Source: Candidatus Bathyarchaeota archaeon (lineage in GTDB: Archaea > Thermoproteota > Bathyarchaeia > Bathyarchaeales > DTEX01). From it: 34,759 nt of DNA. Location of the stretch: NCBI GenBank assembly GCA_018396435.1, contig JAGTRG010000010.1, positions 1 to 34,759 on the forward strand, read 5' to 3'. Shown in pieces: positions 16,465 to 30,432 of this stretch; the first letter of the stretch is position 1; every line of letters starts with the position of its first letter. The translations under genes and the position numbers were made by a program. Under the pieces are notes generated by a model. It saw only the letters and a list, made by a program, of their open reading frames with translations, was not told the origin of the DNA and ran no database searches.

Positions 16465-16585
16465 TTCTCTAATTCTATCCTCCTCTTCTCCGGGGGATCC
16501 TTAAATCAGCCTCCTGTTCACCATCTCCAGATTTTGCCCGCCGAGTTCACCTAGTCTCCTATGATTATGAGAGCATGTATATAAA
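16465..16585 (-). promoter_or_regulatory. PEPCK promoter and long leader with short upstream frames
   Basis: A TATA-like TTTATATAC (16577-16585) predicts a start near 16555, leaving about 90 nt untranslated. Within it are two tiny frames: GTG at 16550 (10 codons plus stop, encoding VNSAGKIWRW, with AGGAG 5 nt upstream) and ATG at 16524 (MVNRRLI). Either could affect translation of pckG; no test is possible here. Confidence 0.35.
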
Positions 16586-16648
16586 TTTTACTTAAATCGA
16601 TAAATAATTACGAAAAACGTAAAATTTGACCATGACCCTAAAATTGAA

Positions 16649-17458
16649 TTACGTAACCTTTAATCCCTTATCTCCCAGAATACTGTTTATTACGAGCTGG
16701 GCTACCTTAGCTCCGCTAAGCAGCATCCCCCCAAATATTGGACCCATACGCGGGGTCTGGTCTATTGCCGCAACAGCCATGCCGGCGACGAATAGGCCCG
16801 GACAGACCTCCCTTGTGCCCTCAACAGTTAACCTCTCAGCATGCGATGACCACATTGACTTCTCTCCCCTGATAGCTATGTTCAGCTCCGGAATTTTTCT
16901 GGAGGCAACCGATAGAACTTCCGCATCGTGACCAGTGCAGTCTACAACAGCCTTCGCCTTGACCCCAAGTGGATCAACATGTAAACCAGCCATTATAACC
17001 GATGTCCACTGAACCACTACACCGACGATTTTAGGCGGCTCCTCCCTATAAATTAGGTCGTCAACAGTTACGCCCAAAATTATCTTTGCTCCAGCATCGA
17101 TGGCCTTGGACGCTAATTTAGCCATCAAATCGGCTGCGTCAACAATAAATAATCCCTCCTCCAGCTGCTCTAATTTACAGCCAGCCTCTTTGAGAATTCT
17201 ATCAGCCGGCGATTCAACAACGATTTTATGGAGCTGCATTCCACCGCCTCCAATCCCACCTCCGAAAGAAAGCCTCCTTTCGAATACAACCGTTTTTAGC
17301 CCGGCTTTCGCCATGTACATAGCAGCGGTTAACCCTGATGGCCCGGCGCCAACCACCACTACGTCTGTTTCAGCGATATTCATCCAGTCTTCCATGGCTT
17401 TCTGTATTATTGCCCTGGTTATTACATGCTCATCAATTTCCCTTATCTTCATGCTCAT
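16649..17458 (-). CDS. thi4: Thi4 family thiazole synthase, sulfide-dependent archaeal type
   Basis: The 269-residue flavoprotein-like fold has a dinucleotide motif [18 protein letters not shown] near residue 35, then [11 protein letters not shown], and ends with [22 protein letters not shown]. Thi4 makes the ADP-thiazole precursor of thiamine from NAD and glycine. In suicidal yeast Thi4 an active-site Cys donates sulfur. Here the matching stretch is AGLHVDP with His, as in methanogen enzymes that use free sulfide catalytically. A related ribose-1,5-bisphosphate isomerase assignment is sometimes given to this family. I start at the ATG 30 nt inside the ORF-track start because GGGGATGAT lies just before it. 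A COG2522-like HTH gene lies 110 nt upstream. Confidence 0.9.
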
Positions 17459-17568
17459 ATGAATCATCCCCTTCTTTTTCATTTCCAATTATTTCCAAAT
17501 TGCATTTTTGGCTTACAATATTCTGAAGCCGTTTAATTTAACCTTTTTGTGGAATAATTTTTTATCTT

Positions 17569-17895
17569 CTATTTTTTAGTGGTTTTGCCTTGTATAGATA
17601 GGCATATTTCGCAAATTTTCAGCATTATTTCCTCCGAACTTACATTTTCACTTGCTATTTTATTCGCAATTTCTCTCGCCGCTTCCTGAATTACGGGCAA
17701 CATGTTCTCAAACTGTGTTAAGCCTTTATGCCCACGCTTTAAACGGAGATATTGGCTTATAGCCGCCTGTGTGGTTCCAAGCTTCTCTGCAACCTCAACC
17801 TGCGTAAGCCTATGCTTTTCAATAAGTTCCCTAGCGATGTAGGATCTTAATATTGGAATTATTCGCCGCCCAATTGATTCGCATGGTGGATACGT
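17569..17895 (-). CDS. HTH transcriptional regulator (COG2522-like), apparent ACG start
   Basis: This gene is absent from the ORF track because its frame has no ATG, GTG or TTG at the right place. From ACG at 17895 it encodes 108 residues: a PPCES motif, a helix-turn-helix at about residues 28-53 (LTQVEVAEKLGTTQAAISQYL, followed by KRG), and a C-terminal CEIC pair at residues 95 and 98. This order (PCE, Xre-like HTH, CxxC) matches an archaeal regulator family as I recall it. GGTGA lies 5 nt before the ACG, exactly where a start should be, and a stop codon lies just upstream in frame. It points toward thi4, suggesting thiamine or metal/redox control. An ATG-to-ACG change or a base-call error is the alternative. 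Confidence 0.7.
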   Translation of the reverse strand, partial: TYPPCESIGRRIIPILRSYIARELIEKHRLTQVEVAEKLGTTQAAISQYLRLKRGHKGLTQFENMLPVIQEAAREIANKIASENVSSEEIMLKICEICLSIQGKTTKK

Positions 17896-17900
17896 TTATC

Positions 17901-18098
17901 TCACCCAAAGAAGGATATAACACGCTTATAGTAATTAACTTTTTCTATCCTAAAACTGGAACTGGAGCGGAACATTTCAAGCGTGAAGCCTTGTTTTAAT
18001 ATCTGAACTTCCCATTTTCCCCTATATCTTATATCTAAATCAGGCAAACAATCGCTGTTTACATCTGCCACCGCAAGCGCTACAAACTTAAACTTCTG
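17901..18098 (-). pseudogene. FG-GAP/VCBS repeat remnant
   Basis: An open frame lies between the feoB stop and the HTH gene. It reads KFVALAVADVNSDCLPDL near its start, which matches the calcium-binding core of FG-GAP/VCBS beta-propeller blades (usually DxNxDGxxDL, here with Cys in place of Gly). It continues to WEVQILKQGFTLEMF and stops after about 65 codons. The only in-frame start is a GTG at 18071, inside the repeat and without a ribosome site. One blade alone is not a protein, so this looks like a leftover of a larger surface protein gene. Confidence 0.4.
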
Positions 18099-18102
18099 TT
18101 AC

Positions 18103-20049
18103 TTAATGCTCTAATAAATTTAATGTCGCTAAAATTCTATAGGCTAATCCGCCCACGCTGATCGCGAGTATTATCTCAAGCAAAGATATCATTGCGGCTT
18201 TTTTCCGTCCAAACTCTTTTGAGCATGCCGCTATGGTTGCTACGCATGGCACATAAAGCATCACCACTAAAGTGAAGACGAAAATTTGTAACGGCGTTAA
18301 GACCTCTTGAAAATTTGTTGTTCCAAGTAACGTTGCAAGAATTACCAGCGTAAGTTCTTTTCTCAATATTCCGAATATTAATGTTACACCGGTGATTTCA
18401 GGCAGCCCAAGCCAAGTGACCGTTACAGGATTTAGAAATCTTGAAATTGGCTCTAAAAGATTAAAAATTTCCGCGAGCTTAATTATTAGTCCGCTTACAA
18501 TTATAAGTGGGAAGGATATTTTGAGAAATTCCTCAAGTCTAAACCATGTTTGCTTAATTACGGTTTTAAAATGCGGAAGCCTATAATCCGGCATCTCCAT
18601 TATTAAGGCCGTTGGCTCCCCGGGAAGGACTTTAAACGCTAGCTCCCCCAGCAGGAAAACTATTATAAGGTCAATGACGTACAGCGTTAATGCCCAGTAA
18701 AACCCGAGAAAGCTTCCAACAAGCCCAAGTATTACAATTGTTCTTGCAGCGCACGGTATTAGTGTGACGACGAAGCCTGTGAGAAGCCTCTCTCTTTCCG
18801 TCTCCATTATTCTGCATCCTAGGCATGCGGGAACATTACATCCGTAACCAAGCATCAGGGGGATGAAGGCTTTACCATGTAAGCCCATTTTATGCATTAA
18901 GGTGTCTGTTAGAAAGGCTGCTCGGGCAAGGTAGCCTGAATCTTCAAGAATATATAAAATTAGGTAAAATGGGATTATATATGGCAGGGCGATGGTAATG
19001 TTGGCTATTACGCCCTCTATAATCCCGCCCCAAATTATCTCCTTAAGCGGGTTTAATCCAAAAAGTTGTTCAAAAAGCGGTTCATACCCGTAGAGTAGGC
19101 CATTAAGAAATTCCGACATGTAACCTCCGAACACGAAGATTACGTTGAAAATTCCAAGAACAATCAGGATCATTATTGGATAGCCTAGAACCCTATGGGT
19201 TGTCACTTCATGCAGCCTCTCGCCTAACTGGGGCTTTATTCTTGGCAGAATCCGCTGAACTTCCCTCGCAATTTTGCCAGCAACCTCATAACGTTCAGAT
19301 ACAACCACTGTTGGGCAGGGGTGACCGTGAATCTCCTCAATTTCCCTAGCGAGGTTTTCAGCCGTCTGCAGAATTTCAGGGCTTAAGTCGTATATTTCCT
19401 TCTTAACTTGCTCATCGCCCTCTAGAAGTTTTATTACCGTCCATCTGGCTGGATATTTAAGCCGTATTTTTCCTAGAGCCTCCGTTAGCCGGCGAATTCT
19501 TTCCTCGATTTCTTCACCATAACTTATCACCGACGGCTTCGCTGCACCTTTCTCAATGACTTCAACGGCTTTTTCAAGCAGCTCGTATATTCCTTTCCCT
19601 TTTATGGCGATTGTTGGGACAACGCTCACTCCAAGTTTTTCTTCAAGCCTTTTAAGGTCTATTTTTATCCCTTTCTTCTCAGCCATATCGATTTGATTTA
19701 GGGCTATAATAAGCGGGGTTTCAAGCTCCAGTAACTGTAGGGTGAAGAAAAGGTTTCTCTCAAGGGCAGACGCATCTACAACGTTTATGACCAGATCTGG
19801 TTTCTCATCAACTATGTACTCTCTAGAAACAATTTCCTCCAGCGAGAAGGTTGATAGCGAGTAGATTCCTGGTAAATCAATAATATCTACGGTATAGCCC
19901 TTAAAGTGAAGAGTGCCCTCAGCCTTTTCAACAGTCTTACCGGGCCAGTTTCCAATGTGCTGATGCAAACCAGTCAGCTGATTAAATATTACAGACTTGC
20001 CAACATTCGCGTTTCCCGCTAATGCGATCTTCAGCTTTTTTTCTGTCAC
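18103..20049 (-). CDS. feoB: Ferrous iron transport protein B
   Basis: The 648-residue protein joins an N-terminal G domain (G1 GNANVGKS near residue 12, G3 DLPGIYSL, G4 NQID, G5-like PTIAIKGKG) to a membrane domain of about eight helices. The membrane part contains the conserved [16 protein letters not shown] near residue 397 and [10 protein letters not shown], the two Gate-motif cysteine regions. It imports Fe2+ across the membrane with GTP control. Its ATG overlaps the feoA stop by 4 nt, so the two are translated together. The length is near the short end of the family, with no large C-terminal FeoC-like tail. Confidence 0.95.
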
Positions 20050-20303
20050 TTTTGAACCTCTACTAGAATCTTTTCAGCCATCCCTCTGCCGATTGCCAGC
20101 CGGTAGCCTCTCACATTAATTTCAATCGGTCCGTGAAAGGGCGCCGACTTAACAACAGTTATCTTTGTGCCGGGTGTTAAGCCCATGTCCATAAGTCTCT
20201 TTTGAAGCCCGTAACCTCCGCCTTTTCCCCATCCAAAGCCGGCTCTTATTGATGTGATTACCCCGCTTTCACCTTCTCTCAACGCTGTGAGCGGCAGCTC
20301 CAT
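20046..20303 (-). CDS. feoA: FeoA family SH3-like protein
   Basis: The 85-residue SH3-fold protein has the FeoA features: LREGESGVI, KRLMDMGLTPGTKITVVKSAPFHGP and IEINVRGYRLAIGR. FeoA supports FeoB activity, probably by docking on its cytoplasmic domain. The ORF track starts at 20327. I choose the ATG at 20303, which has GAGGTG 6 nt upstream and begins at the conserved MELPL. A Gly-rich GFGWGKGGGYG insert precedes the KRLMDMG helix. Confidence 0.92.
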   Translation of the reverse strand: MELPLTALREGESGVITSIRAGFGWGKGGGYGLQKRLMDMGLTPGTKITVVKSAPFHGPIEINVRGYRLAIGRGMAEKILVEVQK

Positions 20304-20326
20304 CTCAACCACCTCTAAAGTCAACA

Positions 20327-20989
20327 TTAAATTTTGCGAACCCTCACAAGCGAGGCTAAATCACGGCTTAAGGCTTGGCTTCTTCTATCTACTTTAATAG
20401 TTACTGGACCATTGAAGGGGGCCTTATCAATCACATCAATGCGTTTTTTCGGTTTTATGCCAATCATGCTGAAGTACTGCAGAAGGGAGCTTCCTTCGTC
20501 AGTAATCTTTGTAATTATCCCCCCATCTCCAATATTCAGTTCGATGAGAGATTGCGTTTCCTCCTCAAATATTTCGCCACGCTCTGTTGGAATCGGATTC
20601 CCATGCGGACAGGTTTTCGGATAGCCAAGAGCCACCTCAATTTTTCCCGCAATCTCCTCCGATATCCAATGCTCAAGCTGACAAGCCGCATCATGCGCCT
20701 CATACCATTCGATTCCTAAGAAATCTGCAAGGAGGCACTCAAGTAACCTATGTTTCCTAATGACACCCATAGCTATTTTAAATCCCTTCTCCGTCAACTG
20801 CACTCCCTTGTAAGGCGCATGAGTTATCAGAAGATTCTTCTCAAGTCTCTCAATCGTGTTAGTTACGGTTCCGGGTGCAACGCTTAAAATCCTAACTAGG
20901 TCGCTTGTTCTGGCTACGCCTCTCTGCTCCTGAAGCCTATAGATGACCTCAAGATACTCCTCAATTACATCGGAAACTTTCGATGGCAA
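20327..20989 (-). CDS. DtxR/IdeR-family metal-dependent regulator with FeoA-like domain
   Basis: The 220-residue protein has an N-terminal winged helix (residues about 1-70, SDLVRILSVAPGTVTNTIERLEK), a metal-binding dimer domain and a C-terminal SH3/FeoA-like domain (PKKRIDVIDKAPFNGPVTI). By eye the ligands align with DtxR: His79 and Glu83 in KHRLLE, and His98, Cys102, Glu105 and His106 in AHDAACQLEH. Cys at the 102 position points to an iron regulator of the DtxR/IdeR type rather than MntR (Glu). The Met10 position appears to be Glu. A TTG start with GAGGCG upstream is used. It leads the feoA-feoB operon and probably represses it with Fe2+ bound. Confidence 0.9.
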   Translation of the reverse strand: MPSKVSDVIEEYLEVIYRLQEQRGVARTSDLVRILSVAPGTVTNTIERLEKNLLITHAPYKGVQLTEKGFKIAMGVIRKHRLLECLLADFLGIEWYEAHDAACQLEHWISEEIAGKIEVALGYPKTCPHGNPIPTERGEIFEEETQSLIELNIGDGGIITKITDEGSSLLQYFSMIGIKPKKRIDVIDKAPFNGPVTIKVDRRSQALSRDLASLVRVRKI

Positions 20990-21028
20990 TGCTTCGCCTC
21001 TCTTTTTACGATTTTTCTAAAACAGAAT

Positions 21029-21063
21029 TACGAATAGTCGTATTTAAGCGTTATATACCGCTT
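21029..21063 (-). promoter_or_regulatory. TATA box and two dyads upstream of the DtxR-feoAB operon
   Basis: Two perfect inverted repeats stand side by side: AAGCG-N8-CGCTT (21046-21063), whose spacer contains the TATATAA box, and TACGA-N4-TCGTA (21029-21042), placed between that box and the predicted transcript start. Binding at either would block TBP or polymerase, as expected for repression by the DtxR-type protein encoded just downstream. Confidence 0.5.
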
Positions 21064-21088
21064 GGAGAAGAAATATGGAGGGATTCTG

Positions 21089-21505
21089 TTAGGGCGATAC
21101 CACAGCAATTTTAACTTGCTTAACGCCTTTCTTAGGCATTAACTCCTGCGCTAGATTTCTTATTTCGCCAGCTTTACCGTTAACTGCGATCATCTCTAGG
21201 CATTTATCCTCTTCTAGATGTATGTGCGTCGTTGATGATATTATATTTCTGAATTTATGCTGGATTTCCATGATCTTCTCTAGTAGGTTGGGCTTATCTA
21301 AATAGTATAAGATGAGTATCGCCCCGGCCATCTGCTCCGTTTCCCCGCGTGTCCATTTAAATTCGCTTATAAAGGTTCGCATAGCGTCATGAACGGCTTT
21401 AGAACGGTTTTCATAATTCATGCTCTTCCAGGCGCTGTCAAATTCTTCAACGAGTGCTGGTGGAAGTGAAATGCTAAAACGTACAACGCCAGCTTTATCT
21501 TGCAT
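21089..21505 (-). CDS. nikR: Nickel-responsive regulator NikR family
   Basis: The 138-residue protein has an N-terminal ribbon-helix-helix (VRFSISLPPALVEEFD to NRSKAVHDAMRTF, residues about 7-48) and a C-terminal ACT-like metal domain. The NikR square-planar nickel ligands are visible: His in QHKF, then HIH and Cys in THIHLEEDKC. NikR proteins form tetramers that bind two spaced half-sites when nickel is present. The ATG has GGTGTC about 6 nt upstream. The gene is divergent from a metal ABC importer and converges on none of the feo genes, so the importer is the most obvious target. Confidence 0.9.
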   Translation of the reverse strand: MQDKAGVVRFSISLPPALVEEFDSAWKSMNYENRSKAVHDAMRTFISEFKWTRGETEQMAGAILILYYLDKPNLLEKIMEIQHKFRNIISSTTHIHLEEDKCLEMIAVNGKAGEIRNLAQELMPKKGVKQVKIAVVSP

Positions 21506-21512
21506 TTAGACA

Positions 21513-21527
21513 CCAAAGATAATTTGG
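21513..21527. promoter_or_regulatory. Dyad at the nikR 5' end
   Basis: CCAAA-GATAA-TTTGG is a perfect 5-bp inverted repeat just upstream of the nikR start codon and includes part of its ribosome-site region. It could be an autoregulatory site, though its spacing is too short for a typical NikR operator. Confidence 0.3.
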
Positions 21528-21843
21528 GGCATGGTTATAGTTAAAATTTTTTAATTCCTAAAACCCAATGTAAAGAGTTTTAAGAGAACCCCTAGGCTGT
21601 TTGGTCAGTAAAGTTTCACGGTTATATCAGTCTCGCTTATTATATTGGTCTTAGCATACCAGCGTGAGGGTGTAGGTTCAGGATGGCTGGTAAGAAGCGC
21701 ATTAAGAACAGAATCTTTTCCTCTTTCTCAGAAGCAGTTAAAATTTTCGAATTAAACACGCAAAAATTATAGCATTTAAAGCATGTCAGAATCATCATGG
21801 ACGCGCTTGAATATGCCCTTAGGGGGTTAAATTTTTAAGTTTG
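21528..21843. other. Intergenic stretch with little content
   Basis: This 316-nt gap between nikR and the importer operon has an A/T-rich nikR promoter side (a TATA-like AACTATAACC on the minus strand) and a 28-codon frame from an ATG at 21682 (MAGKKRIKN at its start). I see no homology or second line of support for that frame and do not call it a gene. Confidence 0.4.
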
Positions 21844-21869
21844 TGTTACATTATAACTTTTTAGTAACA
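21844..21869 (+). promoter_or_regulatory. TATA-flanking inverted repeat of the metal importer operon
   Basis: TGTTAC-N14-GTAACA is a perfect 6-bp inverted repeat with the TTATAAC box inside its spacer. The 26-bp overall span resembles the two separated half-sites bound by NikR tetramers in bacteria (6-bp arms with 16-bp spacing in E. coli). It is placed to block TBP and so repress the importer. Confidence 0.5.
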
Positions 21870-21907
21870 TCATGGAAGGTAAGTGTTTAAAGCGGTGACT
21901 GAGCAGG

Positions 21908-22654
21908 ATGGAACCGATAATCGAACTTAGGGATGTTTCAACAGTGTACGAGGGCGAGAAGAGGCCCGCGATTAGGGATGTTAATCTCGCTTTTGAGGGG
22001 GGCGAGTTTGCTTATGTTATAGGGCCTAATGCCGCTGGAAAAACCACCCTCCTTGAGACTATAAATGGTTTACTGCCGATATTTAAGGGGCATATTTCGG
22101 TTCTAAACTTAGATGTGCAGAAGTATGGAAGGGAGGTTAGGTGTCAAATAGGTTATGTGCCGCAGGACTTTATGGTTGATCCTGGAGAGCCCTACGCTGC
22201 CCTAGATGTTGTTTTAATGGGCAGATATGGTAAGATCGGGGTTATAGGCATGCCCAGTAAGGAGGATAAAGAGAAAGCGATTGAAGCCATGAGGCTTCTA
22301 GAGATCGAGGATTTGGCCAACAAGCCGATTGGGAAGCTTTCCGGTGGACAGCAGCAGAAAGTTATGATTGCCAGAGCCATAGCTAAGGAGCCGAAAATTC
22401 TCTTGCTGGACGAACCGTTCAGCAACCTTGATCCTGAATCACGTGGTAAAATTTCTAAATTAATAGCCCAGATAAGTAGTGAACATAATTTAACCACGAT
22501 AATAGTCACCCATGATCTGCGTCAGATGGCGGAATCATGCAGCAGGGCAATAGTCATGAATAGCGGTAGGATAATTGCTGACTGCGAACCTAGGGAGGCG
22601 CTGGCGCTGATTGAAAAATGGAATTTCTCGGATTTCTGGAGGCATAATGGATGA
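21908..22654 (+). CDS. Metal ABC transporter ATP-binding protein (ZnuC/MntB-like)
   Basis: The 248-residue ATPase shows Walker A GPNAAGKTT near residue 39, Q-loop VPQD, the ZnuC-like VVLMGRYGKIG stretch after it, signature LSGGQQQK, Walker B LLLDEPFSNLD and switch VTHDL. The GRYG(K) segment and overall length fit the manganese/zinc/iron chelate family. It starts the importer operon and overlaps the permease gene by 4 nt. GGTGA is about 9 nt before the ATG. The metal is not set by this subunit; nickel, cobalt, zinc or manganese are all possible. Confidence 0.9.
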   Translation: MEPIIELRDVSTVYEGEKRPAIRDVNLAFEGGEFAYVIGPNAAGKTTLLETINGLLPIFKGHISVLNLDVQKYGREVRCQIGYVPQDFMVDPGEPYAALDVVLMGRYGKIGVIGMPSKEDKEKAIEAMRLLEIEDLANKPIGKLSGGQQQKVMIARAIAKEPKILLLDEPFSNLDPESRGKISKLIAQISSEHNLTTIIVTHDLRQMAESCSRAIVMNSGRIIADCEPREALALIEKWNFSDFWRHNG

Positions 22655-23478
22655 TATATCTTGAGTATGCGATTTTTCAAAGGGCGCTTTTAGGCTGCGT
22701 ATTCATAGGCTTGCTCGGCGGCTTAATAGGCGTGTTCGTTGTGAAGATGAGGCTTTCAACCATAGGCTATTCAATGTCGCATAGCGCATTTGCAGGCGCA
22801 GCTTTAGGCGTAGCCTTATCCGTTGACCCCCTGTTAACCGCCATAGTTTTCTCAGCGGTCACTGCTGTCTTCATAGGTCCGGCTGCTGATAAAGCCCGCC
22901 TGCCCATCGACACAATAACAAGCATAGCGTTCTCGCTCAACATGGCTTTAGCATTCATCTTCTTAACGTTTTCACCTCAGATTGGGCTTTCAAGCGAGGT
23001 TGCAAGCGTTCTTTGGGGAAGCATAGTGTCCATAACAAATAGAGACCTAGTTTACTTGATAGCGTTATGCTCCATAACCCTTGCCCTAATCTACCTATTC
23101 TGGAAAGAGCTTTTCACAATAATGTTCGATAGGAAGATGGCTGAGGCTGATGGAGTAAACACTAAGATATTCGTGTACTTCATGATTTTCTTAGCCGGGA
23201 TAACCGTGGCTTTATCATTGAAGCTCGTAGGCGGATTGCTCGTTTACGCACTCCTTTTCAACCCTGCATCATCAGCTCTTCAATATTTGCACGACATGAG
23301 GAAAATTATTTTTCTTTCACCGATCATAGGGGCCGCATCATGTATAGCCGGCTTCTTCACATCTCTAATTTTCGACATACCCGTAGGCTCATGCATAGCC
23401 CTCATTTCAACCCTAATATTCGCAGTCTCAGTTATCCTTTCGCCTAAAAGGAGAAGGAGGTGGAGAAATGAGGGGTAA
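22651..23478 (+). CDS. Metal ABC transporter permease (ZnuB-like)
   Basis: The 275-residue membrane protein has eight to nine hydrophobic segments and the ABC-3 family pattern: GCVFIGLLGGLIGVFVVKMRLS at the start, YSMSHSAFAGAALGVAL near residue 40, and KLVGGLLVYALLFNPASSA near residue 195. It forms the channel for the ATPase encoded before it. The start codon overlaps the ATPase stop (ATGA) and its own stop lies inside the binding-protein gene, so all three are tightly coupled. Confidence 0.9.
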   Translation: MIYLEYAIFQRALLGCVFIGLLGGLIGVFVVKMRLSTIGYSMSHSAFAGAALGVALSVDPLLTAIVFSAVTAVFIGPAADKARLPIDTITSIAFSLNMALAFIFLTFSPQIGLSSEVASVLWGSIVSITNRDLVYLIALCSITLALIYLFWKELFTIMFDRKMAEADGVNTKIFVYFMIFLAGITVALSLKLVGGLLVYALLFNPASSALQYLHDMRKIIFLSPIIGAASCIAGFFTSLIFDIPVGSCIALISTLIFAVSVILSPKRRRRWRNEG

Positions 23479-24466
23479 TGAGGCAACAATGCTTTTGGCA
23501 GCGCTCTTAATCTTAAGCGCCATATTGCCATCTGCAGCCGCTGAAGAAGGTGAGAAGCCGATAATAGTGTGCACAACAAACGTTCTAGGTTCGATAGTTA
23601 AGGAGATAGCCGGCGAGGATGTGGACATTATTGTCCTAGTGAACCCTAGCCTTTGCCCAGCCGACTACGATATAAAGCCAAGCGACATATACGCCCTAAG
23701 CAATGCAAAAATATTATTCTACCATGACATACCAGGGGAGAAACCTTGGCTTAGAAACCTAATTGAGGCTGCTGGTAACGAAAATCTGATGCAAGTTAGG
23801 GTTCCCGGAACATACAATACGCCTACGGGTGCAAAAAGCTGCATAAAAATAATTGGCGGAAACCTCAGCATAGCGCTCTCAAAGGATTTCAGCAGCAAAG
23901 TATCAAGCATGCTTGACGCTGTGGATTATGTGGCAAATGAGATAAGAAGTGAAGCCCAATCCTTAGGCGTTGAGAAAGTCAGCGTAATATGCATGAATTG
24001 GCAAAAAACATTTGTTGAATGGGTCGGATTTAAAGTTGTCGCAACATATAATCCGCCTGAAACCCTCTCAGCCGGCGATATAGCCAATATCATTGATAAA
24101 GCGCGTAATGAAAGCGCTGCATTGATAATCGATAATCTTCAGTTAAGCGCTGAATTTGGGGCTTCAATAGCCTCCGAGGTTGGAGCAGTACACGTTGTTC
24201 TAACAAACTTTCCTGGAGCAATCCCCGGAACCGGGAATTTAACGCAAATGTTCCGGTATAATGCTAAACAGCTTTTCGAGGGCTTAGGGAGATGGAGGGC
24301 TATGAAGGAATTGGAGGCGGAAGTCAAGGAGCTCGCAGAATCTTTAAGGACTGAAACAGAGAGCCTAAAAAATCAACTGGCGGCTTTTCAGGCAGCAACA
24401 TTTGCGGCGACCACTGTTGCCGCCGTAGAGCTTATATTGCTGCTTGCTAAGAGGAAAAGGCGCTAA
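23468..24466 (+). CDS. Metal ABC transporter substrate-binding protein with C-terminal anchor
   Basis: The 332-residue protein begins with a signal peptide (MLLAALLILSAILPSAAA), then a ZnuA/TroA-like binding fold: IIVCTTNVLGSIVKEIAGED, NPSLCPADYDIKPSDIYAL, ILFYHDIPGEKPWL. Residues about 278-310 are a charged coiled coil (LEAEVKELAESLRTETESL) and the end is a transmembrane helix followed by KRKRR, so it is anchored at its C terminus rather than by a lipid. The usual HxWLDP ligand segment is not visible, and Cys replaces His in the first ligand loop. The bound metal may therefore differ from zinc. An AAGGAGAAGGAGGTGG stretch supports the start. Confidence 0.85.
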   Translation: MRGNEATMLLAALLILSAILPSAAAEEGEKPIIVCTTNVLGSIVKEIAGEDVDIIVLVNPSLCPADYDIKPSDIYALSNAKILFYHDIPGEKPWLRNLIEAAGNENLMQVRVPGTYNTPTGAKSCIKIIGGNLSIALSKDFSSKVSSMLDAVDYVANEIRSEAQSLGVEKVSVICMNWQKTFVEWVGFKVVATYNPPETLSAGDIANIIDKARNESAALIIDNLQLSAEFGASIASEVGAVHVVLTNFPGAIPGTGNLTQMFRYNAKQLFEGLGRWRAMKELEAEVKELAESLRTETESLKNQLAAFQAATFAATTVAAVELILLLAKRKRR

Positions 24467-24540
24467 ACTTAAATGAAAAAGCAGCGTATTTTTGGTGTAA
24501 ATACAGCGAAGAAAATACTGAGTTTGGAGCTAATTGAAAG

Positions 24541-25053
24541 TTGCCGTTCACACCTTTTCATCTTGGACCGGCCTTATGCTTCGGGCTTCCGCTTCGAGAA
24601 CATATGCATGCACCAACATTTTTTCTGGCCAATATTATTGTGGATATTGAGCCGTTCATTGTTCTTGTTTTTGGACTTAATTATCCGTTACATGGGTATC
24701 TGCACACTTTTCTCTTCGCATCAATTCTAGGTTTAGCCCTAGGTTGCATAATGTTTTTCATGAGGGGAATCTTTCAAGGCTTTTTCAAAATTTTCCTCCT
24801 GGAAGGGGAGCGCATGGCAAATATCAAGGATTTCATTGTTGCCGGAATATCCGGCACAGTGCTGCATGTTCTCCTGGACTCGCCTTTAAATAATAATACA
24901 AAGCCGCTCTACCCATTAATGTTCAACCCATTTTATAAGCCCGCATTAATGCTGGAAATCCACAGCTTTTGCATATGGACCGGGCTTTTAGGCATGGCTT
25001 TTTACGTGCATCTTGTTTATAGGAGATCCTTCGTTAAAAATTCAGTTTCTTAA
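24541..25053 (+). CDS. Membrane protein of the MPFTPFHLGPA family (DUF4184/YdjM-like)
   Basis: The 170-residue protein begins PFTPFHLGPALCFGLPL and continues with an IIVDIEPFIVL segment and YPLHGYLHTFLFA. Four hydrophobic helices are evident. The two histidine-bearing motifs and the DxEP motif recur in archaeal proteins annotated as membrane-bound metal-dependent hydrolases, but the activity is unproven. A TTG start is used. The overlapping ORF at 24473-24730 in another frame is a shadow. Its last 20 nt overlap the end of the convergent dehydrogenase gene. Confidence 0.75.
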   Translation: MPFTPFHLGPALCFGLPLREHMHAPTFFLANIIVDIEPFIVLVFGLNYPLHGYLHTFLFASILGLALGCIMFFMRGIFQGFFKIFLLEGERMANIKDFIVAGISGTVLHVLLDSPLNNNTKPLYPLMFNPFYKPALMLEIHSFCIWTGLLGMAFYVHLVYRRSFVKNSVS

Positions 25054-26014
25054 GCACATCCCTATTCACTAGGTTTACCGGGATCTGACCGCTTAGGGCT
25101 CTGGCAACCTCTTCAGCGGCTTTTCTACGTATCTCATACAGCGACCTGTTTGAGTACCAGGCCATATGAGGCGTAATTACTACATTGTCTAACCTCAGCA
25201 GCGGATTATCTTTAGCCGGAGGTTCCTCCTCCAGAACATCTAGACCTGCTCCTGCTATCCACCTCTCCTCAAGGGCTTTGCACAGCGCTTTCTCATCGAT
25301 TATGCCGCCCCTGGAAACATTAATCAGGATGGCCTCCCGCTTCATGCTTCTAAGCTCCTTCCAACCTATCATATGTCTCGTTTCATTAGTGAGCGGTATG
25401 TGAATTGTAATTATGTCCGATTCCTTGATTAGAGTTTCAAAGTCGACTTTTTCAACGCCATATTCTCTGAACGCTTCTCCTAGAACGTAGGGGTCGTAGG
25501 CCACTATTTTAACTTCGAAACCTCTAAGTCTCTGCGCAACCTTTCTCCCAATCCTGCCGAAACCTATTATGCCAACGGTTTTATCCTTCAGCCTAGATAT
25601 CGGCTGAACAGCCTTCCAATCCCATTTATTCTCCTTCACATTACGATCAGCCCAAACAATTTTCCTAGCTAATGATAAAATTAGGCTAAGGGCATGATCC
25701 GCAACATCGGTAACATCGTATATGACGTTTGCGACAAATATTCCCTTCTCCGTGGCCGCGTCAACATCTATGTTATCAACCCCAACTCCATATCGAACGA
25801 TTATCTTCGCCTTCTGAAGGACCTCAATGACCCTTCTAGTTATCGGAGCGTACTGATTCAATAATCCATCAACGTCGCTGCAGCATTGAATAACATCATC
25901 CTCAGTTCTACATTGAAACTTAATAAGATCAGCGCCTATGCTAGATAAAACCTCCTCCTCAACCTCATGAGAACCATAATCCGAATCGGTTATCGCAACC
26001 CTAAATCTTCCCAA
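25034..26014 (-). CDS. D-isomer-specific 2-hydroxyacid dehydrogenase (CtBP/SerA-like)
   Basis: The 326-residue protein has the family order: an N-terminal flavodoxin-like domain, IGFGRIGRKVAQRL near residue 140 for NAD, the catalytic Arg in NVSRGGIIDE, Glu in DVLEEEPP, and His in TPHMAWYS. The PHMAWYS form is typical of the CtBP-like branch rather than SerA. There is no ACT domain, so serine feedback control is unlikely. The ORF track starts at 26044. I prefer the TTG at 26014 because GGAGGT lies 7 nt before it and the conserved FRVAITD begins there. The exact hydroxy acid is unknown. Confidence 0.87.
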   Translation of the reverse strand: MGRFRVAITDSDYGSHEVEEEVLSSIGADLIKFQCRTEDDVIQCCSDVDGLLNQYAPITRRVIEVLQKAKIIVRYGVGVDNIDVDAATEKGIFVANVIYDVTDVADHALSLILSLARKIVWADRNVKENKWDWKAVQPISRLKDKTVGIIGFGRIGRKVAQRLRGFEVKIVAYDPYVLGEAFREYGVEKVDFETLIKESDIITIHIPLTNETRHMIGWKELRSMKREAILINVSRGGIIDEKALCKALEERWIAGAGLDVLEEEPPAKDNPLLRLDNVVITPHMAWYSNRSLYEIRRKAAEEVARALSGQIPVNLVNRDVLKKLNF

Positions 26015-26091
26015 AATGATAACCTCCAAGAAATGTGGGCACATAGATGATTTAGCGCGTTAGAAAGCGACGCGCTAATTTACAGTTTCTT

Positions 26092-26394
26092 TTACTCACC
26101 ACTCTTCCGCTCGCCCTCGAAGGGTATGTTGCCAAATGGCGTGATTACTTGCCCCGATATTTTGTCACCCTCTACCATGCCCTTACAAGTTATAGTTACC
26201 GAACCCATCGGAGTTTCTATACGCTCCGTCCACTGAATCTTATCATCCTCTACTGTGCCTGTAAAACTCATCGTACCCAGCGGTGTCTCATTTGTGCCTG
26301 TTAAAACATTGCCGGATGTCTTAAGCGTTAATTTACCCCTATGTTTTCCCATTGGGGTCTGCATCGTAATTTCGTAGACGCCATCAACCACCAT
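26092..26394 (-). CDS. Small all-beta protein built from TPxG repeats
   Basis: The 100-residue protein contains four copies of a short strand-turn unit: TPMGKHRGKLTL, TPLGTMSFTGTV, TPMGSVTITCKG and TPFGNIPFEGER, each about 20-30 residues apart. It therefore seems to form a small beta barrel or sandwich from an internally duplicated hairpin. Similar short proteins occur in bacteria and archaea with no assigned function; a lipocalin-like carrier role is only a guess. GAGGTGA is about 8 nt before the ATG, and a TATA-like AAATATAAAG lies upstream, so it is probably a single-gene unit. Confidence 0.7.
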   Translation of the reverse strand: MVVDGVYEITMQTPMGKHRGKLTLKTSGNVLTGTNETPLGTMSFTGTVEDDKIQWTERIETPMGSVTITCKGMVEGDKISGQVITPFGNIPFEGERKSGE

Positions 26395-26682
26395 AATGCT
26401 TCACCTCACTTTTCATTGTGGTTTTCTTTATCTTTATATTTTTCCATAAAATAAAACAACTTTTATTGTTGTTAAATGTTTGGCGCAGGAAGACTCTGGA
26501 TCATGCAACCATGCTTTAAAGTTTTATATGTACATGAATTGAGTTCAACGGAGTATCTGCTTTAGGAAAGTTGGGCAGGTTATTATTTTTGCATTTGCAA
26601 AAGTAACTAGTCCAGTTTCTTCTCTTTGTCATTATTGAAATAATGAATTTTCCAGTTTTAGAAATCATTGGGATTGTTTTGT

Positions 26683-26944
26683 TCACTTTAACCGTTGGAG
26701 TTTATCAGTTAGTTCTCGTCTGGTTTCTGGTTTCTTTTGCCATTGTTCAGAATATGTCCTCCATTTTTCGGCGGAGATTTTTTCTTTTACTTTTAATTCA
26801 TTTAGTAGTTCAATGAATTTGGCGAATTGTTGTCGTTGTTTCATTAGTGCTTTTTCTGGCAGTTTTTCCCGTTGGGATACTGTGATTATTTTTGGGCGTG
26901 TAGGTTTCGTCTAGGAATCTGCAGAAGTAGGTGATTTCCCATAG
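26683..26944 (-). pseudogene. Frameshifted gene remnant, unidentified
   Basis: Two minus-strand frames join into one plausible protein end. LWEITYFCRFLDETYTPK runs to an A5 tract (26889-26893), after which a second frame continues IITVSQREKLPEK, KFIELLNELKVKEKISAEKW and ends TDKLQRLK at 26683. A one-base slip in the A tract explains the break. The 5' part is missing: upstream of 26944 the same strand opposes the integrase remnant. The tail is highly charged and helical. I do not recognise the family. The ORF-track entries at 26810 and 26886 cover only pieces or shadows of it. Confidence 0.45.
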
Positions 26945-27241
26945 TTTTGTTCCAGAAGAGGTTATGAGGGCTGTTGCAGAAAAGGGTATGATAACAAACA
27001 GGAACACGATTCAGCTTAGGCTGAAGAGAAGGAAAATTCCTGCAAGGATGCCGGATCTGAGGGATTGTTATGCAACTTTTATGACGAAATAATTTGAGGG
27101 AGTCGGAGATAGACTTTCTGCAGGGGAGAATATCTGCAAGCATCTTCATGAGAAACTACTTTAACCCGGCGTGGATAAGTGACTTGAAGAGCAGAGCGTT
27201 AGAGAGCAAAACAGCTGCTAATAACGTTAAATAAACCATAA
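26943..27241 (+). pseudogene. Tyrosine integrase C-terminal remnant with two frameshifts
   Basis: The three plus frames in succession read like one archaeal integrase end. Frame one gives VPEEVMRAVAEKG and MPDLRDCYATFMTK, stopping at 27090-27092. One base on, LRESEIDFLQGRISASIFM followed by RNYFNPAWISDL appears, with the likely nucleophile Tyr in RNYFNP. Another base on, AKQLLITLNKP ends at a stop at 27239-27241. Each junction needs a single-base change. The N-terminal and core arginine regions are absent. It marks an old integration event beside the DUF72 genes. The family assignment is from motif memory, not a search. Confidence 0.6.
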
Positions 27242-27301
27242 TTTTCTCCTTTTCCTTTTGTAGTTCCATGCGTAGAGGTTCGAGTGTTCTTTACACGCTT
27301 G

Positions 27302-28495
27302 CTATTGTTCCGTGTATGGTTTAAATTCCCAAGATTCTTTGTTCAAAAATATTTGCCTTAGAATTGTTGTGGCTTTTCCCCTGTCAAGGGACAGTAAGAG
27401 TTTGCCCATATGTTTGCAGAGCCTTTTGTTGGGTAGTGTTTTACTCCAGTCGGCGCAATCATGCATTACGATGCGATTTTTATGGTCTATGACTATATGA
27501 TATTCTTTTACTGTAGCTCTTATTTCGTTAGGTGTTTCTTGCTGGATGGTTACTTCATTGTCTTTGATTTGCTGGGCTCTTTTGATTCTTGCTTCGTCCA
27601 TGAAATACCGTATTAAGGTCTCAAAGTTTAGTTCTGATGGTTCGACAAAAGCCTCAAGTTTTGCCTCTTTTGTTTTTGTTGTTGTTTTGAAGTATTTTTT
27701 AATGGTGGTTTTTGCTTCTTCTTGCTCGGGTGTGAGGGGGCCAAGCATTTCTAGGATTTGGAGGCAGTTTTCAACGGCGTATCCGTGATAATGGTTGTTG
27801 AAGTATCCGTACACGGTATTGACTTTTTCAGCTGCCTCCTTTATTTTGGGAGCCCATGGTTCGAGTTCTTCTTGGCGGTATCTGTAGTTGTACCATGGTC
27901 TTGCTCCGTGGCCGTGCCATCGGAAATAGGCTATGTTTGATGTTATGTGTACTTCAGGCGGCAGCAAAGGTTCATCGACTATGGTGTATGCTATGTGGTA
28001 TTTTTCAAGTAGTTCAAATGTTTCTTCTTTCAGCCATGAAGGGTCTCTGAACTCAACTGCCCATTTAACTTGCGCGGGCAATATTTTGAAGAATTCTTCT
28101 ATTTGCTGTGGTTTGTAATCAAATTTAGGTGGAAGTTGGATGAGTATGCAGCCGAGTTTCCCGCTTAAATATAAAGGCTCCATAAGCTCTATGAATTTCT
28201 GGAGATCTTCTTCTATGCCTTCGTTTATATCGAGTTTTTTTGTGTGGGTGATTAATTTTGGCAGCTTTGCCGTGTATATGAAGTCTTCTGGTGAGTATTT
28301 TACCCAGCCCATAACTGTTCCTTTGGTTGGATATCGGTAGAATGTGGAGTCAATTTCGACTGTTCTGAAAACTTTTGAATAGGCTTTGAGTAGACTTTTG
28401 TCTTTTTTCGTATAGAATGGTCCTATCCAGTCTCTGTAGCTCCATCCGGATGTGCCCAGAAAAATTTTGTCAGAAAACGTGTTCAACGGTGTCAC
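27302..28495 (-). CDS. DUF72 protein with C-terminal SWIM-like zinc motif
   Basis: Residues about 10-245 form the DUF72 (YecE-like) TIM-barrel domain: FLGTSGWSYRDWIGPFY, FRTVEIDSTFYRYP, LIQLPPKF, WAVEFRDPSW, YFRWHGHGARPWYNYRYR, YGYFNNHYHGYAVENC. The 150 residues after it end in HDCADW and LCKHMGKLLLSL, which fits an H-x-C-x12-C-x-H variant of the SWIM zinc finger, a nucleic-acid or protein-binding module. The GTG start overlaps the stop of the preceding DUF72 gene (GTGA). A TTG at 28486, 5 nt after GGTGA, is an alternative. DUF72 has no established activity. Together with its neighbour it forms a translationally coupled pair. Confidence 0.82.
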   Translation of the reverse strand: MTPLNTFSDKIFLGTSGWSYRDWIGPFYTKKDKSLLKAYSKVFRTVEIDSTFYRYPTKGTVMGWVKYSPEDFIYTAKLPKLITHTKKLDINEGIEEDLQKFIELMEPLYLSGKLGCILIQLPPKFDYKPQQIEEFFKILPAQVKWAVEFRDPSWLKEETFELLEKYHIAYTIVDEPLLPPEVHITSNIAYFRWHGHGARPWYNYRYRQEELEPWAPKIKEAAEKVNTVYGYFNNHYHGYAVENCLQILEMLGPLTPEQEEAKTTIKKYFKTTTKTKEAKLEAFVEPSELNFETLIRYFMDEARIKRAQQIKDNEVTIQQETPNEIRATVKEYHIVIDHKNRIVMHDCADWSKTLPNKRLCKHMGKLLLSLDRGKATTILRQIFLNKESWEFKPYTEQ

Positions 28496-29424
28496 CTTAT
28501 TGTGGATTGTAATGCTTCTATTACTTCGCTGACGTTATTGTATGTTTTTTCTGGGAGTTTTTGGAGAATCTGGGCCGCGTGTATTCTTTTGTCTTGCGTT
28601 AAATCGAAGAGTTTCCATCCTTGATGTTGTATTAAAGCCTGTTTTGTTGTTGGAAATTGGGCGTCTTCTTTTAACATGTCTTCTAATGAGGCGATACCTA
28701 TGTGTTTTGTGACTTGGGGAAACTTGCCTGTTTCCTTGTATATTTTGAGTCTTGCAGCGTCTTTATACATTCTGACGAAATGGAAGCTTAAGATTATTTT
28801 TTGGGAAGAGACGCTTGTGGCTTTTTTGTCGATTTCGACCAGCTCTTCGTCAGTTGGCTGGTAGATGTTGTGTTGCCCTTTACCAAATAGCCTTGAGTAA
28901 AGTATGTCTGATTCATAGGCGGGTGTTTCGCCTTTTGAAAGGTCAACGCAGTGAATTATATTATGGTCTTGCATGGTTTTTACGAGCTGTAAGGGCAGTT
29001 TTGAATGTGGTATTCCTCTGATTTCGAGAGCAAGCCTTAGTTTTCCAAGGTTAATGGAAGTTAGTAAATCTCTAAAATGTTTGATGTTGTTTTCATTAAA
29101 AGTGAATTTTGGTGGAGTTTGAAGGTGCATGACTGGAGCTTTCAGAATTGTGCATATTTGCCTCATTTTTTCAAAGGTTTTGAAGGTTTCTTGTGTTGGT
29201 TGAAGCATTTGTTTGTGTGTAATTGTTTTGTTCGCTCTCACGGTAAATTGAAAGTTTGGCGGGACGAGTTTGCGCCATATTTCAACTTCTTTTAGAGAGG
29301 GCAACTCATAGAAGGTGGAGTTTACCTCTACAAAGTTGAAGGCTTTAGAATAAGCTACTAAAGGGTGTATTCCTGGGATTTGGAAGTATGCCCATCCACC
29401 TGTGCCTATTAGGTATTCGGTCAA
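28492..29424 (-). CDS. DUF72 family protein
   Basis: This 310-residue paralogue of the next gene has the same domain order: IGTGGWAYFQIPG, FVEVNSTFYELP, FTVRANKTITH, HLQTPPKF, LALEIRG, and LYSRLFGKGQHN, where the partner has the RWHGHG form. It lacks the SWIM-like tail. Asp of the usual GTSGW/DSTFY pair is replaced (VNSTFYELP), so the active-site set may differ between the two. The TTG start has AAGGG about 6 nt upstream. The stop overlaps the start of the SWIM-bearing gene. The region seems more A/T-rich than the rest of the window, in keeping with acquired DNA. Confidence 0.8.
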   Translation of the reverse strand: MTEYLIGTGGWAYFQIPGIHPLVAYSKAFNFVEVNSTFYELPSLKEVEIWRKLVPPNFQFTVRANKTITHKQMLQPTQETFKTFEKMRQICTILKAPVMHLQTPPKFTFNENNIKHFRDLLTSINLGKLRLALEIRGIPHSKLPLQLVKTMQDHNIIHCVDLSKGETPAYESDILYSRLFGKGQHNIYQPTDEELVEIDKKATSVSSQKIILSFHFVRMYKDAARLKIYKETGKFPQVTKHIGIASLEDMLKEDAQFPTTKQALIQHQGWKLFDLTQDKRIHAAQILQKLPEKTYNNVSEVIEALQSTIR

Positions 29425-29702
29425 AAGTTTCCCTTCTTTAGTTGGTGTGTTTTCACTTTTACTTTACTCCCTCTGAGTATTAAATTGTGCTTTTCTGGTA
29501 GAGGTTTATTTGGGCTTTTGCGCTCTTTCTTATTTGCAGTTTGAGGGCCTGCTTTGTCTGTTTTGTCAGCTGAAAGGGTTAGGTGTCTTTCCCTCGGTGT
29601 CTCAGTATTGGACGGTGTCTTTCCAGGTTTTGAGGTTGGGGATTTTGTTGTTTTGATTGGTGCTAATGTTTCCTTCATGAGTTTTTTGAGTGTTTGTTGC
29701 AT
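29421..29702 (-). CDS. Doubtful small basic protein
   Basis: This 93-codon frame encodes a Lys/Thr/Pro-rich chain with no fold signature. In its favour, GGGTGG lies just before the ATG and its stop overlaps the DUF72 start (TTGA). Against it, the opposite strand over most of its length reads as a RecA/KaiC-like ATPase start with its own ribosome site, and the composition is what an antisense shadow gives. I list it because it would be a coupled operon member if real. Confidence 0.25.
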   Translation of the reverse strand: MQQTLKKLMKETLAPIKTTKSPTSKPGKTPSNTETPRERHLTLSADKTDKAGPQTANKKERKSPNKPLPEKHNLILRGSKVKVKTHQLKKGNF

Positions 29703-29793
29703 ATTACCACCCGATAAGGGCGGTTTAGGTTCCTATGTAGTTTTTGTTGATGGTAACGAAGGCCCTCCTCAATTAACTCCGGAATCTTTCTAA
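29554..29793 (+). pseudogene. Truncated RecA/KaiC-like ATPase (5' part only)
   Basis: From a TTG with GAGGG 6 nt upstream the frame reads SAERVRCLSLGVSVLDGVFP, then GFEVGDFVVLIGANVSFMSF and LPPDKGGLGSYVVFVDGN. This is the start of an archaeal RecA-superfamily ATPase of the GVxxLDxxxPGFExGDFVVL type; the P-loop is degenerate (GANVSFMS). Homology seems lost after VDGN, near 29755, and a stop follows at 79 codons instead of some 300. The point of loss faces the truncated nuclease gene on the other strand, so one deletion could have removed both 3' parts. Confidence 0.55.
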
Positions 29794-29845
29794 TAATTTC
29801 TTCCAACTGCTTCTCGGATATATCAACTACTTTGTATTTTCGCAT
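29675..29845 (-). pseudogene. Truncated NucS-like nuclease (5' part only)
   Basis: An ATG at 29845 begins MRKYKVVDISEKQLEEIIRK followed by IPELIEEGLRY, resembling the N-terminal region of archaeal PDDEXK proteins of the NucS/DUF91 kind as I recall them. After EEGLRY the match ends near 29755 and the frame runs on for about 25 unrelated codons to a stop inside the opposing RecA-like remnant. The catalytic region is missing. A TATA-like AATATTTAAAAG about 40 nt upstream suggests the promoter survives. It is too short for the ORF track. Confidence 0.45.
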
Positions 29846-30335
29846 TTTCTCTTTACAAATAATTTATCGTGAATCTTTAGTCTTTTAAATATTAGCTTTA
29901 GACGTGCAAAAATATAGGCCCTATATATCAATGACCAGAAATATAGCCGTTCGGAATAACAAATATTTCTACAAAAAATCTATACTGCCATTTAAAACCT
30001 GAAACAACAAAATAATAAACGTAAAAAGGAGGATGAAAAAGAAAATGCCTAAACCTTGAATGACAGGCATATGCCTAAAAAGTAGCTGAGCTGCTAAGGG
30101 CTAAAGCAAAAGCCGCAAAGATGGGCCTAAACGATAATTTAACAAGCCTCCTGTTAGGACCGTCCCAACAATGTTTAGAGGACCATCCGGGGACCGTCCC
30201 AATAATAATACCAACCGCACAAACCGAGCCGATTCAAACACAATTTCAAGCTCAGAACAAGAAATCAACCCAAGAACAACCCCAAACATTGTTTTCTCTT
30301 AGTGAAGGTTTCTTTTGGAAAAAGAGAAAGTTCAG
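29846..30335. other. A/T-rich stretch before tRNA-Val(TAC), possible gene debris
   Basis: No convincing gene lies here. On the plus strand AAAAAGGAGGATGAAAAAGA gives an excellent ribosome site, but the frame stops after 8 codons. An open frame from 30121 (MGLNDNLTSLLLGPSQ, then Gln-rich) runs on into the tRNA, which a real gene would not do. ATGCCTAAA occurs twice about 30 nt apart near the abortive start. I read this as remains of a disrupted small gene. Confidence 0.35.
30157..30206 (+). repeat. Short direct repeats GGACCRTCC
   Basis: GGACCGTCCCAACAAT (30157-30172) recurs 34 nt on as GGACCGTCCCAATAAT (30191-30206) with one mismatch, and GGACCATCC lies between them (30180-30188). The copies fall in different frames of the overlapping ORF, so they are a DNA-level and not a protein repeat. 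Confidence 0.55.
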
Positions 30336-30432
30336 TGGGCCGGGCCGGACTTGAACCGGCGACCTCAGCCTCGTAAGGGCTGCTTTAGGTTCCTAGAGGA
30401 GGGATGTCCTAACCACGCTAGACTACCGGCCC
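30336..30432 (-). tRNA. tRNA-Val(TAC) with a noncanonical intron
   Basis: Read on the minus strand: acceptor GGGCCGG/CCGGCCC, D stem GTCT/GGAC, T arm GCCGG-TTCAAGT-CCGGC, discriminator A, no encoded CCA. The anticodon arm CAGCC-CTTACGA-GGCTG is complete and uninterrupted, giving anticodon TAC (valine). Between the D stem and the anticodon stem are 23 nt (30383-30405) where one is expected, so a 22-nt insertion sits at about position 25/26 or 26/27 instead of 37/38. Arms and most loops match the tRNA-Val(CAC) gene in this window. A TATA-like GATATAAAC lies about 25 nt upstream (30453-30463). The exact splice points are not resolved. Confidence 0.9.

Follow-up and report, generated by a model that had tools for sequence, protein, structure and literature searches.

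Coupled DUF72 genes beside the remnant of a PolB2 mutasome operon in a Bathyarchaeota genome: a possible accessory unit for DNA-damage tolerance

What could a pair of tightly coupled DUF72 genes do in an archaeal genome, and how did it come to lie beside broken repair genes? The question is raised by the window, the whole 34,759-nucleotide stretch analysed here from a Candidatus Bathyarchaeota archaeon (contig JAGTRG010000010.1, assembly GCA_018396435.1). A sequence-only reading of this DNA had joined the pair to a RecA-like ATPase and a NucS-like nuclease in a partly decayed four-gene module for repair or defence. The evidence gathered here points instead to a two-gene archaeal unit that may serve DNA-damage tolerance as an accessory of a translesion mutasome. 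A role in damage tolerance as such appears likely, and the proposal as a whole, with the mechanism and history set out below, stands in even balance. The genes concerned are the following.

27302..28495, minus strand: DUF72-A, 397 aa, a canonical DUF72 TIM barrel followed by a C-terminal domain with a SWIM-like motif
28492..29424, minus strand: DUF72-B, 310 aa, a divergent DUF72 barrel and the upstream gene of the pair
28492..28495, minus strand: GTGA, the 4-nt overlap of the DUF72-B stop and the DUF72-A start (AGG TGA / GTG ACA)

Both ORFs are open and full length in the window, and the overlapping DUF72 genes of the earlier reading are borne out by Pfam DUF72 (PF01904, gathering cut-off 25.3), which is matched by DUF72-A with E=4.5e-67 (226.7 bits) and by DUF72-B with E=2.6e-31 (109.8 bits). 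Of 28 co-directional pairs with DUF72-B upstream of DUF72-A, 13 show the identical 4-nt overlap, and in most of the others the two genes lie within ~30 nt of each other. In the closest relative (G167) the two proteins are 87% and 80% identical to DUF72-A and DUF72-B, respectively. Judged by substitution patterns, both window genes are under purifying selection, with dN/dS values against this relative of 0.083 for DUF72-A and 0.12 for DUF72-B, which span the entire divergence from it and are no proof of function after the deletion described below. As a separate observation, the C-terminus of DUF72-B (28492-28640) has a DUF2795 match just under the cut-off (23.7 vs 25 bits), and a similar C-terminus is present on another widespread DUF72 paralog.

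On the other side of the promoter region, three further features have to be considered.

29554..29754, plus strand: 5' remnant of iRadA, 67 codons, the first gene of the PolB2 operon, followed by unrelated sequence
29421..29702, minus strand: 93-aa ORF on the strand opposite the iRadA remnant and shared promoter, no family match
29678..29845, minus strand: 56-aa ORF, earlier described as "NucS-like" (NCBIfam NucS, E=0.036)

The RecA-like fragment is, by its sequence, the start of an inactivated RadA (iRadA), a protein that lacks Walker A in relatives; the covered P-loop region of this 67-codon remnant has no GK[TS]. It is 74% identical to the start of the intact iRadA (L035) of a genome of the same family, G013 (E=1e-23), and the DNA similarity to the closest relative spans the shared promoter and stops at base 29754, where the gene is broken. 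The PPB2 and PolB2 genes are absent beside the remnant. The RecA-like remnant and the partial decay of a repair module were thus read correctly from the sequence. The same does not hold for the nuclease, as the 56-aa ORF is not matched to NucS by Pfam and a search of 60 related genomes gave no convincing relative. The 93-aa ORF, lying opposite conserved iRadA coding sequence, is probably spurious and not a gene.

The intact form of this neighbourhood can be seen in relatives. The survey covered 257 genomes of the class Bathyarchaeia and 69 DUF72-B loci, at 48 of which DUF72-A lies within 1 kb of DUF72-B and at 23 of which PolB2 lies within 5 kb. PolB2 is present in 55 of the 65 genomes with DUF72-B and in 39 of the 192 without it (Fisher 1.6e-20, a value that overstates independence, as the linkage counts come from related genomes that share ancestry), and the PolB2-linked loci fall in several families (f1, f6, f7, f8 and f21). 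Gene maps place the pair, or DUF72-B alone, divergent from an iRadA-PPB2-PolB2 operon at about 20 loci, including the closest relative, where the pair is divergent beside the complete operon. None of the 35 strongly matching iRadA ORFs has Walker A, a set in which a few loci are counted twice. In the mutasome-linked operons, motif C of PolB2 is without DxD and reads HGIVDS in nearly all cases, and the small protein PPB2 opens with MG[RK]T or something close to it; the main text of PMC11791011 gives these three features as the signature of the mutasome. According to the same text, a DUF72 gene, treated as one family protein of unassigned function, is enriched near polB2 in archaea and bacteria, so the proximity itself is already known.

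The suggestion that relatives keep an intact RecA-like gene next to the pair is therefore upheld, with PPB2 and PolB2 standing where a NucS partner had been expected. The four-gene module of the two DUF72 proteins, the RecA-like ATPase and the NucS-like nuclease keeps a real and recurrent RecA-like partner, yet with an insignificant NucS match and another pair of genes in its place at intact loci it must be regarded as very improbable. No evidence was found for a defence role, and no close viral relatives of DUF72-A or DUF72-B were found in IMG/VR.

Several loci deviate from the common arrangement. DUF72-A occurs without DUF72-B in one family (f27). At L145 (G199:C1:15000-27000) the pair is accompanied by iRadA and PPB2, with PolB2 more than 200 kb off on the same contig, and the locus looks partly dismantled. 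A DUF72-B gene beside an intact mutasome is broken by one in-frame stop (L035:2698-3627, G013:C55), and a second mutasome of this genome (G013:C38, L054) has its PolB2 divided between two ORFs, alongside a long ORF for DUF72-B. In family f10, PolB2 (G062:C12, G073:C46, G076:C17, G067, G070, G074) is interrupted near query residue 480, with some of these breaks falling in ORFs 950-1650 aa long, which points to inteins or split genes.

The intergenic region between the divergent genes contains one further element.

29451..29464, plus strand: promoter-region box TTTCACTTTTACTT, centred ~34 nt before DUF72-B

Its consensus, TTTCACTTTCACTT, is common to mutasome-linked divergent promoters. Of 18 intergenic regions, 16 contain the 9-mer core with one mismatch or none, compared with no more than 8 after shuffling. 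Across 957 kb there are six exact copies of the 14-mer, five of them in DUF72-B/iRadA promoters. Such a box may reflect co-regulation of the pair and the polymerase operon; it could also be a basal promoter element. The consensus includes ACTTTC, which fits ANTTTC, the core of the Sulfolobus damage-response element (PMC9738581). This tie is taken as a lead only, and since the window copy is without the ANTTTC core, no such element is claimed here.

How the pair arrived in this genome may be read from its surroundings.

26452..30334, no strand: 3.9-kb island, absent from the congener G001, which has 79 bp between the same flanks
30336..30432, minus strand: tRNA gene with an intron-like insertion (Rfam RF00005, 45.6 bits), its 3' end abutting the island
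26943..27204, plus strand: remnant of an archaeal tyrosine integrase, C-terminal part, frame broken (tblastn to integrase L166)

Over both flanks (14762-26451 and 30335 onward) the sequence is syntenic with the nearest congener, G001, at 90-94% identity, and a misbinned contig was rejected for the flanks on these grounds. The integrase remnant aligns to the full integrase L166 in blocks of 37% and 68% identity (combined E=2e-18, tblastn) and weakly to PF16795 (E=0.2). In the DUF72-B tree the window protein groups with that of G167, a genome of a different family, with support of 100/99. The island fits horizontal transfer via a tRNA-integrated element followed by deletion, an order of events that we infer. 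A duplicated tRNA 3' end (att repeat) was not found, the best local match near the left edge being 10 bases long; the element is decayed, so loss of the repeat is possible. No integrase was seen beside the other mutasome loci checked. Regarding the tRNA gene itself, it was missed by ARAGORN and detected by Rfam, and its anticodon loop, CUUACGA, suggests tRNA-Val (UAC). A 20/22 match to the tRNA/intron sequence of 30336-30432 lies at 29715-29736, near the end of the iRadA remnant; it closely precedes the breakpoint at 29754 and is possibly tied to the rearrangement.

The pair sits in a decayed island, among fragments of an integrase and of iRadA, and none of the 10 congeners searched has an ortholog of DUF72-A or DUF72-B. 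It might thus be a mobile-element relic that is being lost and no longer has a role in this genome. This is considered doubtful: both genes retain complete reading frames and have dN/dS ~0.1 relative to the closest relative, and the genome offers a possible partner. A second PolB2-like polymerase (G000:C1:10584-12728, L072:4516-7789) with an intact DxD motif, YADSDS, is kept elsewhere and directly follows an iRadA-like gene. Polymerases of this DxD type also occur near a DUF72-B in G214 (L131) and in L242/L245.

With regard to the proteins themselves, the AlphaFold models (pLDDT 89.7 for DUF72-A and 95.9 for DUF72-B) predict DUF72 folds, and the solved DUF72 structures 1vpq/1ztv/1vpy are the top matches for both. 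After these, the Foldseek matches of DUF72-B include an AP endonuclease of family 2 (3ngf, E=3.6e-4), DUF72-A matches SacUVDE distantly (3tc3, E=4.1e-3), and many sugar-epimerase-type TIM barrels are also returned. No demonstrated activity for any DUF72 protein was found in the open-licence literature. One solved relative, TM1631, is predicted to bind damaged DNA, with a proposed endonuclease-IV-like role and a putative active site without metal ions (PMC3828134), so that damaged-DNA binding by this family is an existing proposal. The barrel residues E148, R150, D174, R192, H194, N233, N234 and H235 of DUF72-A show no exception in two alignments, in which E175 is near-invariant. DUF72-B retains the Glu-x-Arg and Tyr-x-Arg positions and has RLFG in place of RWHG, which changes the barrel His to Phe, as well as a replaced FNNH motif.

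The two forms of DUF72-A, long and short, differ in how they end. The relevant features of the long window protein are listed here.

27305..27643, minus strand: C-terminal domain of DUF72-A, about residues 285-397, with helices, four strands, a zinc-knuckle-like motif and helices
27410..27463, minus strand: H-x-C-x12-C-x-H (H345-D-C347-x12-C360-K-H362), putative zinc ligands, residues 345-362
27644..27670, minus strand: KEAKLEAF, a degenerate PIP-like segment in the C-terminal alignment, residues 276-284

The C-terminal domain is predicted well (pLDDT 83-97 for most 10-residue blocks) and has no significant match in a Pfam search; SWIM (PF04434) reaches E<=1 for only 3 of 20 relatives. The H-x-C-x12-C-x-H tail, recognised earlier, is exact in the window protein and present in every one of the 62 distinct long DUF72-A proteins, always with 12 residues separating the two cysteines, and because of this fixed spacing it is not a chance occurrence. 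H345, C347, D349, W350, C360, K361 and H362 are invariant in the alignment. KEAKLEAF sits where short DUF72-A proteins terminate in QxxLxxFF. The short form, which ends for instance in KKQVGLTSFF, is the usual one at the PolB2 loci of family f7. Within the final 16 residues, the strict PIP pattern is found in 11 of the 21 short DUF72-A proteins and in 1 of 79 DUF72-B proteins; among the remaining ORFs it is found in 4 of 1314 (p=8e-19 for short DUF72-A against these). Near the C-terminus of the window DUF72-A, no match to it (Qxx[LIMV]xx[FYW][FYLW]) is present.

These candidate interaction modules of DUF72-A, PIP or zinc motif, together with the loss of the barrel His and FNNH in DUF72-B, would suit non-catalytic regulators or scaffolds, acting as damage sensors or mutasome loaders. 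Such a role for both proteins is distinctly unlikely given the invariant barrel residues of DUF72-A. Catalysis on DNA by DUF72-A, as suggested by these residues and the predicted fold, is itself judged somewhat short of an even chance.

Outside the Bathyarchaeia, DUF72-A lies within 1 kb of DUF72-B at 22 of 32 loci in other archaea, mostly in divergent orientation. The pair has been found in Methanoperedens, ANME-2, Borrarchaeota, Caldarchaeum, Wolframiiraptor, thaumarchaea and others, and its reach includes Asgard. In two Borrarchaeum, PolY comes 37 nt after DUF72-B; at two loci FEN1 is 9-70 nt away from DUF72-A or DUF72-B, and ThermoDBP genes are near the pair at three. The Pfam families of the neighbours are mixed at these loci, with repair genes among many metabolic ones; as the metabolic neighbours are also common, the linkage to repair genes is a tendency and not a rule. 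Additionally, an IMG/VR contig (L256:6330-8780, IMGVR_UViG_3300028327_000836) carries a umuD-like gene, umuC and a DUF72 gene in a tight operon, with an overlap of 72 nt between the latter two.

Many DUF72-A/B pairs have neither PolB2 nor another polymerase alongside. Considering also the epimerase-type barrels among the structural matches, the pair could be a general enzyme for nucleic acids or nucleotides, acting for example on RNA or on a damaged nucleotide pool, and its linkage to polymerases could reflect shared stress induction. However, the repeated and separate links to PolB2, PolY, FEN1 and ThermoDBP, as well as the clamp-like motifs, point to DNA at the fork, and this explanation therefore seems unlikely. 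The preferred reading in its most far-reaching version, likewise rather unlikely, makes the pair a pan-archaeal heterodimer that processes lesions: tethered to the clamp in the short form, this enzyme would prepare or resolve damaged DNA on behalf of the translesion polymerases PolB2 and PolY.

In its more restrained version, the accessory-unit reading would run as follows. In Bathyarchaeia the pair would commonly be an accessory to the PolB2 translesion mutasome (iRadA-PPB2-PolB2), divergent from it across a common promoter region. DUF72-A, in which phosphate-binding and candidate catalytic residues are kept, would be an enzyme of the TIM-barrel type, binding DNA that bears lesions and probably cutting or unhooking it, and DUF72-B, with its altered active site, would be its partner or specificity subunit in a heterodimer. 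The pair may be recruited to the fork by the clamp, through the PIP-like C-terminus in the short form of DUF72-A, or by the SWIM-like zinc domain in the long one, which would couple lesion handling with bypass. The locus would have entered the genome by horizontal transfer in a tRNA-integrated element, and a later deletion would have taken away PPB2, PolB2 and the greater part of iRadA but spared the pair, which perhaps now works with the other, DxD-type PolB2 of the genome.

The most far-reaching version, if true, would assign a function to the DUF72 superfamily for the first time and supply the PolB2 mutasome with a catalytic subunit that had been missing. DUF72 is very widespread, and the defined partners (PolB2 mutasome, PolY and FEN1) and motifs narrow its function to a few assays. 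The locus also suggests that archaeal damage-tolerance genes can travel in tRNA-integrated elements and that a DUF72 pair can outlast its polymerase operon. The open-licence literature searched yielded no earlier report of a translationally coupled or divergent A/B module that spans Archaea, nor of the promoter box or the conserved SWIM-like and the PIP-like tails; in the main text of PMC11791011 there is no mention of SWIM, and the coupled pair, a DUF72 PIP motif and the shared promoter box were not found.

Among known systems, the DUF72 / YecE-like family (PF01904; TM1631 1vpq, EF0366 1vpy/1ztv) has the same barrel, by profile and predicted fold. DUF72-A differs from it in the added zinc-motif domain or PIP-like tail, and DUF72-B, a divergent branch, has changed active-site motifs and a C-terminal extension of its own. 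The TIM barrels of UV damage endonuclease and endonuclease IV show a distant likeness to the predicted structures of DUF72-A/B, which do not belong to these families by sequence, as the Pfam search returned neither. The C-terminal domain of DUF72-A resembles the SWIM zinc domain (CxC-xn-CxH) in its four candidate ligands, their SWIM-like spacing, the preceding strands and the following helix, but its first ligand is His and not Cys. The bacterial mutasomes UmuD-UmuC and ImuA-ImuB-DnaE2 follow an analogous logic, a bypass polymerase joined to RecA-like or accessory parts, and a DUF72 gene follows umuDC in the IMG/VR contig. Unlike the archaeal loci, both have a polymerase of an unrelated family and lack the DUF72 pair. 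As for the PolB2 mutasome (Timinskas et al. 2025, PMC11791011; Makarova et al. 2014, PMC4104785), although the operon itself is lost in the window, the same operon is carried by its intact relatives.
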